Below, one piece after another: positions 36,205-43,355 of a stretch of 64,000 nucleotides of DNA. Source of the stretch: Methylomonas subterranea (GTDB taxonomy: Bacteria; Pseudomonadota; Gammaproteobacteria; Methylococcales; Methylomonadaceae); contig NZ_JANIBJ010000001.1 in the NCBI RefSeq assembly GCF_024505185.1, positions 62,001 through 126,000 on the forward strand, given 5' to 3'. The notes beneath the pieces were generated by a model. It was not told where the DNA came from. It did no database searches and saw only the letters and a program-made list of their open reading frames with translations. The position numbers and the translations under genes are program-made. The first letter of the stretch is position 1. Every line of letters starts with the position of its first letter.

Positions 36205-36237
36205 TCATATTTACATTACCAATAAGGGAGCTTAATG

Positions 36238-36525
36238 ATGTCGTTGACGGCCAGTGACGTGAAAAAAATCGCCCACCTCGCCAGGTTGGGCATTCAGGAA
36301 CATCAAATCGATAGTTATGCCAGTGACTTGTCCAACATGCTGGATTTGATGACGCAAATGGGGCAATTGAATACCGATGGCGTGGCTCCCATGGCCCACC
36401 CCCTGGATCAGATGCAGCGCCTCCGAGACGATGCGGTGACCGAAACCGATCAACGCGGTCTGTTCCAGTCCATTGCCCCGCAAACCGAGGCCGGGCTTTA
36501 TTTAGTACCCAAAGTTATCGATTAA
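36238..36525 (+). CDS. gatC: Asp/Glu-tRNA amidotransferase subunit C
   Basis: Small clamp subunit that joins GatA and GatB in the transamidation of misacylated Asp-tRNA(Asn) or Glu-tRNA(Gln). The 95-residue protein has the typical [12 protein letters not shown] start and the C-terminal tail [13 protein letters not shown]. Two adjacent ATG codons occur (36235 and 36238); GGGAG at 36226-36230 is better spaced for 36238. It is followed by gatA after 8 bases. Confidence 0.95.
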
Positions 36526-36533
36526 GGATGATC

Positions 36534-37985
36534 ATGCACAATCTTACCCTGACCGAACTGGCGGCCGCGTTGCGCGGCAAGCAATTTTCCAGCACGGAAT
36601 TGACGCAAGCTTTTTTAAGCCGCATTCGCCGGCATGAAACCTTGAATGCATTTATTACGGTCTGCGAAGACAGCGCCTTGCAACAAGCGCGGGCGGCGGA
36701 TGCCTTGCTGGCGGCCGGCGCGGCCGGGCCGTTGACCGGTATTCCGCTGGCGCAGAAAGATATTTTCTGCACACTGGGTACTAAAACCAGCTGTGCTTCG
36801 AAAATGCTGGACAACTTTATCGCACCTTATAACGCCACGGTGGTTGAGAAATTCAACCGGGCCGGCGGCGTGATGTTGGGTAAATTAAACATGGACGAGT
36901 TCGCCATGGGCTCGTCCAACGAAAATAGTTTTTACGGGGTAGCGCACAATCCGTGGGATACCGGTTGCGTGCCGGGCGGCTCATCCGGCGGTTCCGCCGT
37001 TGCGGTGGCCGCCCGGCTGACGCCGGCGGCCACCGGTACCGATACCGGCGGCTCGATACGGCAACCGGCGGCATTTTGCGGCATCACCGGTTTAAAGCCT
37101 ACCTATGGTCGGGTATCGCGCTACGGCATGATTGCCTATGCCTCCAGTCTGGATCAGGGCGGCCCGATGGCGCGCAGCGCGGAAGACGCGGCACTGCTGC
37201 TGCAAGTGATGGCCGGTTTCGATCCCAAGGATTCCACCAGCGTCGACCGACCTGTGCCGGATTACAGCGCCGGCCTGAACGACAGCCTGCAAGGTTTGAA
37301 AATCGGATTGCCGAAACAGTTTTTCAGCACCGGGCTGGACGGTGAAATGGCTACGACGATTCAGACAGCGGTCGACGAATACCGCAAACTCGGCGCCGAC
37401 GTTAAAGAAGTGGACATGCCCAACCTGGAGCTAGCCATTCCAGCCTATTATGTGATCGCCTCGGCCGAATGCTCGTCCAACCTGTCGCGTTACGACGGCG
37501 TGCGATTCGGTTACCGTTGCAAGGATCCCCAAGACTTGACCGACCTCTACACCCGCTCGCGTGGCGAAGCCTTCGGTGCCGAAGTCAAACGGCGGATTTT
37601 AATGGGGACCTACGCCTTGTCCGCCGGCTACTACGATGCCTACTACTTAAAAGCTCAACAAGTGCGCCGCTTGATCAGCGACGATTTCAAACGCGCCTTG
37701 TCGGAAGTCGACGTGTTGATGGGGCCGGTTTCGCCCGGCACCGCGTTCCGCATCGGCGAAAAGACCAGCGACCCGGTGCAGATGTATCTGGAAGATATTT
37801 ACACTATCGCCATCAATCTGGCCGGCTTGCCGGCCATGTCTGTTCCGGCCGGCTTCGTCGACGGCATGCCGGTCGGCTTGCAGGTGATCGGCAGCTATTT
37901 TAGCGAAGCCAAGTTGTTGAACGTCGCGCATCGCTATCAGCAAGTCACCGATTGGCATCTGCAAGTGCCCAAGGGTTTTGAGTAA
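36534..37985 (+). CDS. gatA: Asp/Glu-tRNA amidotransferase subunit A
   Basis: Amidase that hydrolyses glutamine and channels ammonia to GatB. From ATG 36534 (AAGGA 5 bases upstream; an earlier ATG at 36528 overlaps that site) the protein is 483 residues. The amidase-signature catalytic triad K75, S150 and S174 is in place ([41 protein letters not shown]), with the family's 75- and 24-residue spacings. Unusually, gatB does not follow directly: three accessory genes lie between. Confidence 0.97.
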
Positions 37986-38033
37986 CTCCATTAATGTTCG
38001 CAAGCTAAATCGCACACATAGAGAAGCCCTTTG

Positions 38034-39200
38034 ATGTTGATACGATCTATAAAGCTGAATAATTTTTTGAGCTACGGCGACAGTGCGCCCTGTATTCCGT
38101 TAAACAGTCTCAACGTAATTATCGGTCCCAATGGTTCTGGAAAATCCAACCTCATTGAAGCTATAGAGCTCTTACGCGCCACCCCCAAAGATTTGCTTAC
38201 TCCTATCCGCGATGGTGGCGGTATTCGCGATTGGCTGTGGAAGGGTAGCAGCATCATCCCCACAGCGAGTATCGAAGCCGTATTTAGCTTGACGGACACT
38301 CCCTCAAACAACCTACGCTACACACTTGGTTTTACAGAAGTTGCTCAACGCTTTGAAATCACCGATGAGCGCCTTGAAACCGAAACCCCAAAGCCTCATA
38401 AAAACCAGCCGTATCTGTATTACGAATTTCGCAATGGTCACGGTGTGTTAAATGTAAAGGGAAGAGAACGAAGGCTGCAACATGAAGAGATCGAATTAAA
38501 CCAGTCTATTTTGTCCCAACGCAAAGATCCCGATCAATATCCTGAATTAACTCGGCTTGGTCGTTCGCTGGCAGAAATAAAGCTTTACCGGGAATGGAGT
38601 TTCGGGCGCTATACAACACCCCGCATCCCGCAAAAAGCCGATCTTCCCAATGAATGGCTGGAAGCGGATGCGCGCAATCTCGGTTTGGTACTGAATCGCT
38701 TGCGCCGTGAGCCCCAAGCCAAACAACGTCTGTTATCCGCCTTGCAAGCTCTCTACGAGGGCATCGACGATTACGATATTCAAATAGAAGGCGGCACCGT
38801 TCAGGTATTTTTTCATGAAGGCCGCTTTACCGTGCCCGCCACTCGGCTATCGGACGGCACGCTGCGCTATCTTTGCTTGCTGGCAATCCTGTGCCACCCC
38901 AATCCTCCACCCTTGGTGTGCATTGAAGAACCGGAACTAGGCTTACACCCCGACATATTGCCTACACTGGCCGATTTGTTAAAAGAAGCTTCCGAACGCT
39001 GCCAATTGATCGTGACCACGCATTCCGAGATATTGGTGGACGCTTTGTCGGATCAACCCGAGTCGGTATTGGTTGCTGAAAAAAACGAAGCCGGTTCCAC
39101 CCTGACCCGTTTAGATGCAGAACAACTAAAACCTTGGCTGGAAAAATATCGCTTAGGTCAACTCTGGACTCAAGGACAAATTGGAGGAACTCGCTGGTGA
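38034..39200 (+). CDS. AAA/ABC-type ATPase (RecF/OLD-like), candidate defence-system subunit
   Basis: Predicted P-loop ATPase of the SMC/RecF/OLD-like group. The 388-residue protein has Walker A GPNGSGKS at 31-38, an ABC-like signature LSDGTLR at 272-278, Walker B LVCIEEPELGLHP with E298/E299, and a switch histidine H330 in TTHSE. There is no long coiled coil or fused nuclease domain. The start ATG 38034 follows GAGAAG; a TTG directly before it is less likely. It overlaps the next gene (DUF4276) by 4 bases. Base composition is visibly more AT-rich than gatA. ATPase + TOPRIM-like pairs such as OLD, Gabija and PARIS act in phage defence; a similar role here is inference. Confidence 0.88.
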   Translation: MLIRSIKLNNFLSYGDSAPCIPLNSLNVIIGPNGSGKSNLIEAIELLRATPKDLLTPIRDGGGIRDWLWKGSSIIPTASIEAVFSLTDTPSNNLRYTLGFTEVAQRFEITDERLETETPKPHKNQPYLYYEFRNGHGVLNVKGRERRLQHEEIELNQSILSQRKDPDQYPELTRLGRSLAEIKLYREWSFGRYTTPRIPQKADLPNEWLEADARNLGLVLNRLRREPQAKQRLLSALQALYEGIDDYDIQIEGGTVQVFFHEGRFTVPATRLSDGTLRYLCLLAILCHPNPPPLVCIEEPELGLHPDILPTLADLLKEASERCQLIVTTHSEILVDALSDQPESVLVAEKNEAGSTLTRLDAEQLKPWLEKYRLGQLWTQGQIGGTRW

Positions 39201-39853
39201 AAATTTTCGTAGAAGGGGGCGGCGATTCTAGTCAACTGAAAGCGAATTGCCGGAAGGGATTTGCCAGCTTTCTTGAAAAAGCCGGCCTTAAAGGAAATAT
39301 GCCCAGAATTGTAGCCTGCGGAAGTCGAAAACATGCTTATGATGATTTTTGTACCGCTTTAAATAACGGTGAAGAAGCTTTGTTATTGGTGGATTCGGAA
39401 GAATCCGTCAATACGGGATTGCAAGGCACTGAAGACTATGAAACCTGGAAACCCTGGGAACATTTAGCCCAGCGCGAGGGCGATAAATGGGTTAAGCCGA
39501 TAAAAGCTACCAATAAGCAATGCCATCTGATGGTTCAGTGCATGGAAAGTTGGTTTTTGGCTGATCGCGACTCCTTGAAGTCATTTTTTGGGCAAGGCTT
39601 TAAGGAAAATCAGCTACCCGCTGCTGCTAACTCGATAGAAGCGATTGGCAAACAACAAGTTTATGAAGCGTTGGCAAAAGCAACGGCCGACTGTAAAAGC
39701 AAAGCAAAATATGGCAAAGGCGAGCATTCTTTTAAAATTTTGGAACTGATTGCCCCAAGCAAAGTTATAGAAGCTTCCCCATGGGCAAGGCGTTGGATCA
39801 ATGTGACGAAACATCTAATGGGGATTTCATTGTCTGCAGCGGATAAGCAATAA
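39197..39853 (+). CDS. DUF4276 family protein, TOPRIM-like, partner of the ATPase
   Basis: 218 residues from a GTG start at 39197, with GGAGG nine bases before it and a 4-base overlap with the ATPase stop (GTGA). The N-terminus KIFVEGGGDS puts an acidic residue (E6) after a beta strand, and a second strand ends in an acidic cluster (LLLVDSEES, D66-E68-E69). That is the E...DxD/E arrangement of TOPRIM-type metal sites, which would make this the catalytic (nuclease-like) subunit. A KxHxMVQ-like segment (KQCHLMVQCMESW) follows near 120. The gene is AT-rich compared with its neighbours, suggesting acquisition. The family has no firmly established function. Confidence 0.82.
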   Translation: MKIFVEGGGDSSQLKANCRKGFASFLEKAGLKGNMPRIVACGSRKHAYDDFCTALNNGEEALLLVDSEESVNTGLQGTEDYETWKPWEHLAQREGDKWVKPIKATNKQCHLMVQCMESWFLADRDSLKSFFGQGFKENQLPAAANSIEAIGKQQVYEALAKATADCKSKAKYGKGEHSFKILELIAPSKVIEASPWARRWINVTKHLMGISLSAADKQ

Positions 39854-39856
39854 ACC

Positions 39857-40459
39857 ATGACTAAAGTCACTCATCTATCGCAACTCGACCCCAACGGTAC
39901 CTACAGCTATGCCGATTATCTGACCTGGCAGCTCGAAGAATCGGTCGAGTTGATCAAGGGCAAGATCATGGCGATGTCGCCGGCGCCCAACCGCAAACAC
40001 CAAAGCGTCTCCGGCAACTTGTTCCTGCACTTGGGAAACTATTTCAAGCACAAACCCTGCGAAGTGTTTGCCGCGCCATTTGATGCAAAGCTTTACGACC
40101 GCCGCAAATCGCTACTCAAAAATGGCGAAGCGTTTAGTGTCGTGCAGCCCGACTTATGCGTGATTTGCGACAAGGACAAACTGACCGAACAAGGCTGCGA
40201 CGGCGCGCCGGACTGGATCATCGAAGTGCTCTCGCCCGGCAACAGTAGAAAAGAAGTGCGCCTGAAATTCGATTTATACGAAGAAAGCGGCGTGACCGAA
40301 TACTGGCTGGTGTTTCCTTACGAACAAATCGTTCAGCAATTCGTGCTCGACGACCACGGCAAATATCAGCTGCGCGCGCTGTACCCCGGCAACGAAATTG
40401 CCATTCCGCATTTATTCCCCGACTTGCAAATCGATTTAAACGACGTTTTTGCCGAATAA
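39857..40459 (+). CDS. Uma2-family (DUF820) PD-(D/E)XK nuclease-like protein
   Basis: 200-residue protein of the Uma2/DUF820 group, which has a restriction-endonuclease fold. Visible conserved acids are E31 (VELIKGKI), D99 in VQPDLCV and E123 in PDWIIEVLSPGNSRKE, consistent with a PD-(D/E)XK site. It lies 3 bases after the DUF4276 gene and 19 bases before gatB, so all three accessory genes and gatB share a transcript direction. Codon use looks more host-like than that of the preceding pair, so it may be an independent arrival. Function is not known; many such proteins are solitary. Confidence 0.83.
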   Translation: MTKVTHLSQLDPNGTYSYADYLTWQLEESVELIKGKIMAMSPAPNRKHQSVSGNLFLHLGNYFKHKPCEVFAAPFDAKLYDRRKSLLKNGEAFSVVQPDLCVICDKDKLTEQGCDGAPDWIIEVLSPGNSRKEVRLKFDLYEESGVTEYWLVFPYEQIVQQFVLDDHGKYQLRALYPGNEIAIPHLFPDLQIDLNDVFAE

Positions 40460-40478
40460 GCTATAAAGGAAACCAAGC

Positions 40479-41918
40479 ATGAACTCACAATGGGAAGCCG
40501 TCATCGGCCTGGAAATCCACACCCAACTTTCCACCAAATCCAAAATCTTTTCAGGTGCCTCGACTGCCTACGGCGCGGACCCCAATACCCAGGCCTGCGC
40601 GGTCGATCTAGGCTTGCCCGGCGTGTTGCCGGTGCTGAACAAGGATGCGGTGCGCAAGGCCGTGACTTTTGGTTTGGCGATAGACGCCGAAATCGCCCCG
40701 CACTCGGTATTTGCCCGTAAAAACTATTTTTACCCGGATCTACCGAAAGGTTACCAGATCAGCCAGTTTGAACTGCCCATCGTCGGCAACGGCCATTTGG
40801 ACATTGACGTCGACGGCGAGACCAAACGCATAGGCATCACTCGAGCGCATTTGGAAGAAGACGCCGGCAAATCCCTGCATGAAGACTTCCACGGCCTGAC
40901 CGGCATAGACCTGAACCGCGCCGGCACGCCGCTATTGGAAATCGTCTCCGAACCGGATATGCGTTCGGCCAAGGAAGCCGTGGCCTACATGCGCAAACTG
41001 CACGAATTGGTGCGCTACCTGGAAATCTGCGACGGCAACATGCAGGAAGGTTCGTTCCGCTGCGATGCCAACGTCTCGGTGCGCCCCAAGGGCCAAAAGG
41101 AATTCGGCACCCGCGCCGAAATCAAGAACATCAACTCCTTCCGCTTCGTCGAAAAAGCCATCAATCACGAAATCGAACGCCAAATCGACGTCATCGAGGG
41201 CGGCGGTAAGGTCGTGCAGGAAACCCGTTTGTACGACGCCAACAAGGATGAAACCCGCTCGATGCGCAGCAAGGAAGAAGCCAACGACTACCGCTACTTT
41301 CCCGATCCGGATTTGTTGCCGGTGGAAATCGAAGAAAGCTTGAAGGACGAAATCCGCGCCGCGCTGCCGGAATTGCCGGACGCCAAGAAGAGCCGCTTCA
41401 TCGCCCAGTACGGCATGGACGCAGAAAGCGCCGCGACTTTGACTTCGTCGCGCGAATTGGCCGATTTCTACGAAACGGTAGTCAAAGCCTTCGGCGGTGA
41501 GGCCAAGCTGGTCACCAACTGGCTGACCGGCGACGTGCTGGGCGCCTTGAATAAGGCCGGTCTGGAGATAAGCGATTGCCCGGTCGACGCGGAACGTTTG
41601 GCCGGCTTGTTGAAACGCATTGCCGACAACACCATTTCCGGCAAAACCGCCAAACAGGTGTTCGATAAACTGTGGAACGGCACCGCCACGGCAGACGAGA
41701 TCATCGAGCAGGAAGGCTTGAAGCAAATCACCGACAGCGGTGCCATCGAAGCCATCGTCGACAAAGTGATTGCCGCCAATCCCGTGCCGGTCGAGCAATA
41801 TCTGTCCGGCAAGGACAAGGCGCTGATGGCGCTGGTCGGTCAGATCATGAAGGAAACTCAGGGGAAAGCCAATCCTGGGGAAGTGAATAAGATGTTGATT
41901 GCTAAGTTGAAAGGTTGA
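40479..41918 (+). CDS. gatB: Asp/Glu-tRNA amidotransferase subunit B
   Basis: tRNA-binding kinase/transamidase subunit of GatCAB. The 479-residue protein begins [20 protein letters not shown] and has [18 protein letters not shown], the [17 protein letters not shown] motif and a C-terminal helical/YqeY-like tail ending [17 protein letters not shown]. Its ribosome site AAGGAAA lies between the Uma2 stop and the ATG. It is separated from gatA by 2.5 kb of accessory genes. Confidence 0.97.
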
Positions 41919-42218: not shown

Positions 42219-42480
42219 GTTGTGTCGCTATCGCGACGGGTGTTTTAGAAGTCGGGTTTCGGCCCGACAGCCGAGGTACTTTTCTTTGCTTGTCCAAAGA
42301 AAAGTACCCAAAAGAAACGATCCCCGGATGCCACTTTTTTCCTGCGCTCCTCGGGTTTGAGCGGGGTTTTTCGAAGGGGCTTCCCAGCCCCACGAAAAAC
42401 GCGATGCATCCCTGCATCGCCCCAGCGGGCAAATCCGCTCAAACCCTCCGGTGCTCGGCGCGGCATAACGGGAGAAAACC
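42219..42480 (+). repeat. Hairpin-rich ~262-bp dispersed repeat, copy 1
   Basis: Matches 43094-43355 in inverted orientation over its whole length. Hairpins visible in this copy: GTCGGG/CCCGAC; a perfect 14-bp stem GGTACTTTTCTTTG / CAAAGAAAAGTACC with loop CTTGTC; GGGGC/GCCCC; and GCGATGCA-TCCC-TGCATCGC. Short ORFs on both strands here are by-products of the repeat. Confidence 0.88.
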
Positions 42481-42603
42481 AATCGCTGTGGTAGGCTAGG
42501 TTGAATGATAATGAAACCCAGTGATAATGGATTTGAAGCTGGGATTCGCTTTGCTCTATCCAGCCACGGGCTTAATTGCTAGTTAGATTTCTAAGGGAGT
42601 CGA

Positions 42604-42933
42604 ATGGACAAAAAGTACCAAGTATTCGTCAGTTCAACATATGTTGATTTGCTAGATGAGAGAAAGGAGGTTATTCAAGCTCTGTTGGAGCTTGATTGCA
42701 TTCCGATTGGAATGGAATTATTTCCGGCTTCTGACGATGATCAATGGTCATTTATAAAAACAGTAATAGATGATTGTGACTACTACGTTTTGATTCTCGC
42801 TGGAAGATATGGATCCTGCTCGGAATCAGGATTAGGTTACACAGAAATGGAATATAGATATGCAATAGAGTCAGGGAAGCCAGTGATTGCTTTCTTGCAT
42901 AAAGCCCGCGTAGGTCCGATTAGCGAAGCATAA
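42604..42933 (+). pseudogene. DUF4062 protein, truncated by a palindromic repeat
   Basis: 109 codons encode a DUF4062 N-terminal domain (KKYQVFVSSTYVDLLDERKE; CDYYVLILAGRYGS; GLGYTEMEYRYAIESGKPVI). Such domains normally head larger proteins, often signalling or NTPase-type. The reading frame enters a palindromic element at 42909 and its last residues (ARVGPISEA) and TAA stop are encoded by that element, so the natural C-terminus has been lost. It is AT-rich compared with its surroundings and lies between inverted copies of a longer repeat, which suggests a decayed acquired gene. Confidence 0.75.
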
Positions 42934-43067: not shown

Positions 43068-43093
43068 TATTTGAATGTTTTTGAATCTGCGAT

Positions 43094-43355
43094 GGTTTTT
43101 TTCCCGTTATGCCGCGCCGAGCACCGGAGGGTTTGAGCGGAATTGCCCGCAGGGGCGATGCAGGGATGCATCGCGTTTTTCGTGGGGCTGGGAAGCCCCT
43201 TCGGAAAACCCCGTTCAAACCTGAGGAGCGCAGGATCAACGCGGCATCCGGGTTGCCTTTTCTTTGGATACTTTCTTTTGGCAACGCAAAAGAAAGTATC
43301 TCGGTCGTCGGTCCGAGAACCGACTTCTAAAACATCCGTCGCGATAGCGACACAA
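43094..43355 (-). repeat. Hairpin-rich ~262-bp dispersed repeat, copy 2 (inverted)
   Basis: Inverted copy of 42219-42480. Its longest stem is GATACTTTCTTTTG / CAAAAGAAAGTATC, also 14 perfect pairs. Positions that differ from copy 1 differ on both arms, so pairing is kept. The GCGATGCA/TGCATCGC hairpin is identical in both copies. Confidence 0.88.

Follow-up and report, generated by a model that had tools for sequence, protein, structure and literature searches.

A 64,000-nucleotide stretch of the genome of the gammaproteobacterium Methylomonas subterranea (contig NZ_JANIBJ010000001.1, positions 62,001 to 126,000; hereafter the window, with positions counted from its first base) carries, between the genes gatA and gatB, two overlapping genes for an OLD-type ABC ATPase and a protein of the DUF4276 family, followed by a gene of the Uma2 family. 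The first two genes probably arrived by horizontal transfer as an anti-phage module of the HEC-01 kind, in which the ATPase would restrain, and upon a cue release, a small TOPRIM nuclease. Direct support comes from the families of the two proteins, their pairing and co-inheritance, the predicted TOPRIM-like fold of the partner, the foreign composition of both genes and a related clade that resides in bacteriophage exclusion (BREX) operons. A sequence-only reading of the window had proposed a two-gene defence module similar to the phage anti-restriction-induced system (PARIS) or Gabija, possibly with Uma2 as a third, nuclease-type part. The general kind, an ATPase with a TOPRIM-like partner acting against phages, is upheld by pairing, fold and BREX kinship, whereas membership in PARIS or Gabija and the part given to Uma2 had to be given up.

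Recurrence and Co-inheritance of the Pair

When species genomes were scanned with DUF4276, 50 related loci from many phyla emerged. The ATPase gene lies upstream of the DUF4276 gene in 48 of them, a few with broken frames, and in the other two (L106 and L122) the gene begins 42 and 24 bases from the contig end, so that the pairing is indeed recurrent. The subfamily of the window itself is rare, being found in 5/369 genomes of the class (its own included) and in 1/37 of the genus. The wider DUF4276 family is present in 23/37 genus genomes and in 39/369 class genomes; an ATPase match accompanies it in 23 of the 26 genus loci, counting that of the window, and in 27 of the 29 class loci looked at. 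Among 38 pairs, distances between the ATPases correlate with those between the DUF4276 proteins (Mantel r 0.79, the highest of 2000 permutations reaching 0.33). Judged by gene order and by these distances, the ATPase and the DUF4276 protein travel as a unit.

Profile searches place the first protein in the Pfam family AAA_21 and its partner in DUF4276 alone (Table 1). The best-scoring PADLOC matches are HEC-01A for the ATPase (E 2.3e-189, residues 1-388 on positions 3-393 of 393) and, immediately adjacent, HEC-01B for the DUF4276 protein (E 1.7e-81), for which all 11 families matched are HEC-01B. Since both best matches fall on HEC-01 models, are near full length and stand side by side in the same order, the pair belongs to a publicly catalogued candidate defence system.

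The ATPase and Its C-terminal Tail

The ATPase displays a Walker A motif (residues 31-38), the signature LSDGTLR (272-278), the glutamates E298/E299 and H330, all at the residues named in the sequence-only reading. In an alignment of 40 ATPases (A4, comprising 39 of the 50 related loci and the window), G31, G36, K37, S273, G275 and H330 are invariant, and E298/E299 are at least 90% conserved. Fold searches with the AlphaFold2 model, which has a predicted local distance difference test (pLDDT) score of 90.4, match the heads of SMC, Rad50, PtuA and OLD; AriA is absent from the best 50 matches.

The chain ends in a conserved tail, in which W378, G384, G385, R387 and W388 are invariant and GG.RW forms the extreme C-terminus in 40/40 ATPases. 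The tail is modelled at low confidence (pLDDT 47-64 from residue 371 onward), and several paralogues in the genus carry related C-terminal tails. At the DNA level, its codons contain GGAGG, 9 bases upstream of the GTG start of the DUF4276 gene, and the stop codon of the ATPase and this start share the 4-base overlap GTGA that had been read from the sequence. The first glycine codon of the tail is GGA or GGG in 34/40 relatives, hence a DNA-level constraint on the glycine codons is real. Conservation of GG.RW solely for the sake of a ribosome-binding site was considered and is less likely, as the arginine of the tail is encoded now by CGN, now by AGR codons, and pairs of non-overlapping genes keep the tail as well. 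For the same two reasons, selection at the protein level is likely; conserved yet modelled at low confidence, the tail resembles a docking tail.

A Predicted TOPRIM-like Fold in the DUF4276 Protein

In an alignment of 46 DUF4276 proteins (A3, comprising 45/50 related loci and the window; L089, L120, L122, L124 and L126 were omitted as broken or short), E6, D66 and E117 are invariant and E68 is at least 90% conserved, in agreement with the E6...D66-x-E68 pattern that had been compared to a TOPRIM metal site. The motifs of both proteins are not due to chance, because they are invariant or at least 90% conserved in the two family alignments. The model, predicted with high confidence (Table 1), is an alpha/beta fold with strands at residues 2-5, 37-40, 61-66 and 109-112, and it has the TOPRIM arrangement of a glutamate after strand 1 (E6) and a D-x-D/E motif after strand 3 (D66-x-E68). 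In a second-look structural alignment, the best match is the C-terminal region of OLD (Z 10.0, 167 residues, root-mean-square deviation 4.0), with AriB of PARIS (Z 9.1, 164 residues, 12% identity) and GajA (Z 7.5) also matched; chains from OLD, PARIS, Gabija or retron-Eco8 take all of the top 14 places (Z 10.0 to 4.9), and the next entry scores 4.1. According to the model, the DUF4276 protein would thus adopt a TOPRIM-like fold with a conserved acidic site, to which OLD and AriB are nearest, and it is likely a nuclease. E6 aligns near residue 26 of AriB, as read from the aligned ranges and not from a residue table, and the accessible part of one report describes AriB E26A as inactive, with tRNA cleavage lost (PMC12409363). 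A literature search returned no paper naming DUF4276.

Insertion Into the gat Operon

The gene order is gatC, gatA, ATPase, DUF4276, Uma2 and gatB, every gene on the plus strand, so three accessory genes do separate gatCA from gatB, as had been seen in the sequence. The pair is also AT-richer than its flanks (GC 0.474 vs 0.581 in gatA and 0.565 in gatB), and the GC content at third codon positions (GC3) is 0.49 in the ATPase gene and 0.42 in the DUF4276 gene vs 0.70 in gatA, 0.67 in Uma2 and 0.73 in gatB. Among 36 relatives of the same genus, Uma2 sits between gatA and gatB without the pair in 27; the gatA-gatB gap is 636-644 bases in 26 of these (the 27th, G033, is on a split assembly) and 2496 in the window. 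In 7/36 (G014, G001, G032, G022, G018, G021 and G003), gatA and gatB are 18-58 bases apart and Uma2 is missing, while two were not judged (in G019 gatA is away from gatB, and in G010 the contig ends in gatB). Aligned with six pair-less relatives, the window loses similarity after the gatA stop codon and regains it at the start of Uma2; a GGAG-type site precedes Uma2 in these relatives, and in the window just ACC stands between the DUF4276 stop codon and Uma2. On account of the Uma2-only gaps of the relatives, the breaks in similarity at the junctions and the GC3 contrast, the ATPase and DUF4276 genes are, by alignment and composition, a recent, foreign and clean insertion between gatA and uma2, a placement between gatA and gatB that occurs in 1/37 genus genomes. 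As suggested in the sequence-only reading, a site within an essential operon might guard the pair against deletion.

The comparison of gatA-gatB spacing thus confirmed an insertion, yet it made Uma2 an older resident and not a member of the cassette. A three-gene PARIS- or Gabija-like system with Uma2 as an extra nuclease could be suspected from the adjacency and common direction of the genes, with only three bases from DUF4276 to Uma2, but it is most improbable: Uma2 alone fills the gap in three quarters of the relatives, its GC3 is host-like, and no Uma2 match was found in the 50 loci around related pairs or in the 29 class loci. Uma2 was therefore rejected as a third part. In PADLOC it matches PDC-S03 (175 bits), and the genome of the window (G000) holds ten Uma2-family matches.

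Kinship With Pairs in BREX Operons

In a maximum-likelihood tree of the 40 ATPases, the window groups with L077, L080, L081, L089 and L079 (support 97/94), to which it is sister with a support of 91/86 that lies below the level starred by the tool. Three of these five clade-mates (L077, L080 and L089) are next to brxC in BREX operons, and L081 lies beside BREX remnants; L079 has no BREX gene in its locus. In the three former loci and in L082, the pair comes immediately after the BrxC gene and ahead of PglX, with BrxF upstream and, wherever the contig extends that far, BrxH downstream; between the pair and PglX there are a 248-aa open reading frame (ORF) in L077 and two ORFs in L082. In L081, truncated PglX and pieces of BrxH are found downstream of the pair, with no BrxC match upstream. 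Inferred from BrxF and from PglXI/BrxXI, as the latter appear in a source available in part, these operons are of a type 3-like kind. The accessible text of one study likens TOPRIM-linked OLD-ABC ATPases to PARIS and describes them as suicidal effectors that serve as a backup within BREX operons (PMC12839542).

The pair of the window stands alone between gatA and uma2, in a genome (99.9% complete, 104 contigs) that gave no match to BrxC; three genus genomes gave BrxC matches of only 18-20 bits. This solitary position, in a genome with no BrxC match to supply a BREX context, might suggest a defence module that is decaying and no longer active, which is nonetheless very unlikely, given that both frames are open and of full length, that neither protein lacks an invariant residue of its family, and that the overlap and its ribosome-binding site are intact.

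Comparison With Known Systems

The name HEC seems to refer to genes embedded in Hma clusters, as is suggested by a passage on HEC-05 and HEC-06 in the accessible part of one article (PMC11411939), whereas the pair of the window stands in a housekeeping operon. Among the papers listed by literature searches for HEC-01, none reports anti-phage activity of this system, which is predicted in strains in the part available of another article (PMC12724379); no paper combining gatA, gatB, antiphage and operon was found. The BREX backup effectors consist of the same two kinds of protein, and the ATPase clade nearest to that of the window includes pairs that adjoin brxC, yet the location differs, and the term DUF4276 does not occur in the accessible text of that study (PMC12839542).

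PARIS likewise has separate genes for an ABC ATPase and a TOPRIM protein, and its AriB is among the closest structural matches. The family domain of AriB is DUF4435, whereas the partner in the window matches DUF4276 alone in Pfam and only HEC-01B in PADLOC, with no AriB model among the hits; membership in PARIS was therefore rejected at the family level. OLD nucleases and GajA of Gabija have the ATPase and TOPRIM domain kinds in common with the pair, but hold both in one chain, while the window encodes two chains in overlapping genes. Gabija in addition comprises the helicase GajB, and no helicase accompanies the pair, the next genes being Uma2 and gatB; in the absence of a fused ATPase-TOPRIM protein and of GajB, Gabija was rejected as well. 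In Septu, the partner PtuB is an HNH protein, unlike the DUF4276 partner found here.

A second pair of ATPase and DUF4276-like partner occurs in the gat operon of another genome of the genus (G004, L031:2190-4022), where it starts 31 bases past gatB. It differs from the pair in the window in its site after gatB, in the model that it matches (PDC-M31A, 266 bits) and in its weak partner (25 bits, with Pfam DUF4276 below the cut-off). In G033 (L153), the response-regulator gene also seen in G004 stands at +42 past gatB, which makes this an apparent pair-free site.

Weighing the Anti-phage Reading

Several findings weigh against an anti-phage module of the HEC-01 kind. BREX genes were found at 5/56 loci searched, and most of 150 near neighbours in the 50 related loci are non-defence genes. 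This neighbour scan covered 150 of 152 chosen ORFs (those >900 aa were left out) and matched 132 Pfam families at 1e-5 and 35 PADLOC families at 1e-15, of which 25 each were listed; as it had no background control, no enrichment is drawn from it. Embedding on the same strand between near neighbours shows no enrichment either (12/41 pairs vs 51/253 controls, Fisher p 0.22; controls were ORFs of at least 200 aa in the same loci, and 4/45 loci lacked a neighbour on one side). Neighbour and context ORFs were chosen mechanically, some of them in wrong frames. The predominance of non-defence neighbours and the lack of enriched embedding weaken a general claim of defence islands. Furthermore, a search of 72,556 plasmid and 50,697 phage records gave no match to P0002 at 1e-5, Foldseek alone found nothing for DUF4276 at E 0.001 or below (first entry OLD 6p74, E 0.17), and neither a profile search of the PDB nor phmmer against solved structures revealed a meaningful relative of DUF4276.

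The same surroundings could point to a selfish or stress-response ATPase-nuclease module of a toxin-antitoxin-like nature, or to an OLD-type role in cell cycle or repair, with phages not the main target. One relative, in Desulfobotulus alkaliphilus (L084:2984-12154), lies between recC and recB, after a 143-aa ORF, and for an archaeal ATPase of the OLD family a role in cell cycle progression is reported in the accessible part of one article (PMC12796447). We give this alternative a small but appreciable chance, as it is opposed by the match to the HEC-01 models, by the BREX-embedded nearest clade and by the patchy presence of the subfamily in genus and class.

Alternatively, the pair might be a domesticated accessory of the gat operon, with the TOPRIM protein acting on tRNA in a role linked to the GatCAB amidotransferase. 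Its site between gatA and uma2-gatB, the lack of a terminator-like site in 37900-40600, the PDC-M31 pair of G004 and the cleavage of tRNA by AriB-type TOPRIM enzymes, as described in sources available in part, would agree with such a role. Domestication is very unlikely, however, because the placement is confined to a single one of 37 genomes, gat genes do not adjoin the pair in any of the other sets of related loci inspected (50, 29 and 25 loci), and the pair lacks the codon composition of the host.

Proposed Mechanism

For the favoured reading, an anti-phage module of the HEC-01 kind, we propose that the ATPase would restrain the nuclease and let it go when a phage cue arrives, because the anatomy fits that of PARIS and the BREX backup effectors. 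In PARIS, AriA holds AriB until the phage protein Ocr appears, according to the accessible parts of two studies (PMC12839542; PMC12409363). By analogy, we infer a complex in which an oligomer of the ATPase would hold the nuclease inactive, probably via the conserved C-terminal tail. A phage cue as the trigger, perhaps an inhibitor of restriction systems, would alter the ATPase and free the nuclease, which, with a metal site made of E6, D66 and E68, would cut nucleic acid, the substrate being either tRNA, the target of AriB, or DNA, the target of OLD. Protection would arise as cutting halts the growth of the phage while sacrificing the cell, and the gene overlap may couple translation of ATPase and nuclease.

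A bolder version is doubtful: a BREX-linked TOPRIM/OLD-ABC backup effector might have become an independent immune unit, with the tail of the ATPase as a clamp on the nuclease. The gat operon would then be a recurrent landing place in the genus (HEC-01 between gatA and uma2, PDC-M31 behind gatB), an effector that cuts tRNA perhaps gaining from being expressed together with a tRNA amidotransferase.

Layout of the Locus and Neighbouring Features

Coordinates are given in Table 1; the gene upstream of gatA is presumed to be gatC from its position.

Table 1. Features of the gat operon and the inserted pair, in window coordinates.
Feature	Position	Strand	Basis
gatC (context)	36235..36525	+	ORF; upstream of gatA conserved in relatives
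gatA, upstream flank of the cassette	36528..37985	+	TIGR00132, 604 bits
Left junction zone of the insertion (zone, not exact breakpoint)	37986..38033	+	Alignment with six pair-less relatives: similarity stops just past the gatA stop codon
OLD/SMC-type ABC ATPase, HEC-01A, 388 aa	38034..39200	+	PDLC04177, 627 bits; AAA_21, E 1.5e-44; AlphaFold2 pLDDT 90.4
Codons of the conserved ATPase C-terminal tail, LW..G..GG.RW	39162..39197	+	Invariant residues in the alignment
GGAGG, likely Shine-Dalgarno of the DUF4276 gene, within the two Gly codons of the tail	39183..39187	+	Sequence
DUF4276 TOPRIM-like protein, HEC-01B, 218 aa, GTG start	39197..39853	+	PF14103, E 8.1e-27; PDLC04201, 271 bits; pLDDT 95.7
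Right junction, three bases, DUF4276 stop to Uma2 start	39854..39856	+	Similarity to six relatives restarts at the Uma2 start
Uma2-family gene, 200 aa, older resident outside the cassette	39857..40459	+	PF05685, E 1.9e-33
gatB (context)	40479..41918	+	NF004014, 806 bits

Further features were noted near gatB in other genomes of the genus. In G015 (L132:1900-3700), an ORF behind gatB with a P-loop resembles a zeta-type kinase toxin by motif only, and a 97% copy of the last 32 gatB codons lies at +1301, together, as judged by eye, with a repeat that is also present in the window. In G018 (L036), the C-terminal part of gatB (residues 412-477) recurs as a partial second copy with 59% identity, 781 bases past gatB, and in G019 (L032) no gatA match was found within 11 kb around gatB, though the genus keeps gatA beside gatB.

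In the window, this repeat is inverted, has a length of 267 bases (88%; 42220-42486 on the plus and 43089-43355 on the minus strand) and encloses a DUF4062 ORF fragment (42604-42933). It has 35 genome matches, several of which form plus/minus pairs around at least one ORF between housekeeping genes. The enclosed ORFs are of 405 aa in L194, 266 aa (DUF3825) and 579 aa in L195, 271 aa in L196, and 487, 348 and 114 aa in L197; judged by eye, genes beside the repeat pairs resemble sufB/sufC and ureC. Six cargo proteins gave two Pfam hits and no PADLOC hit at 1e-5. The repeat pairs are possibly a non-autonomous, cargo-carrying element.

Implications

HEC-01 is already listed in PADLOC, and pairs of OLD-ABC ATPase and TOPRIM protein are in print; what is new is a copy that stands alone in a gat operon and is kin to copies embedded in BREX operons, along with the details described for the tail and the metal site. 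The old resident Uma2 could be told apart from the newcomer pair, which gene order alone would merge. By means of the predicted model, the acidic site, the pairing and the co-inheritance, an uncharacterised candidate system, half of which is DUF4276, is set on firmer ground, and the conserved tail of the ATPase offers a ready target for mutation. The ATPase clade links stand-alone copies of the pair to those embedded in BREX operons.

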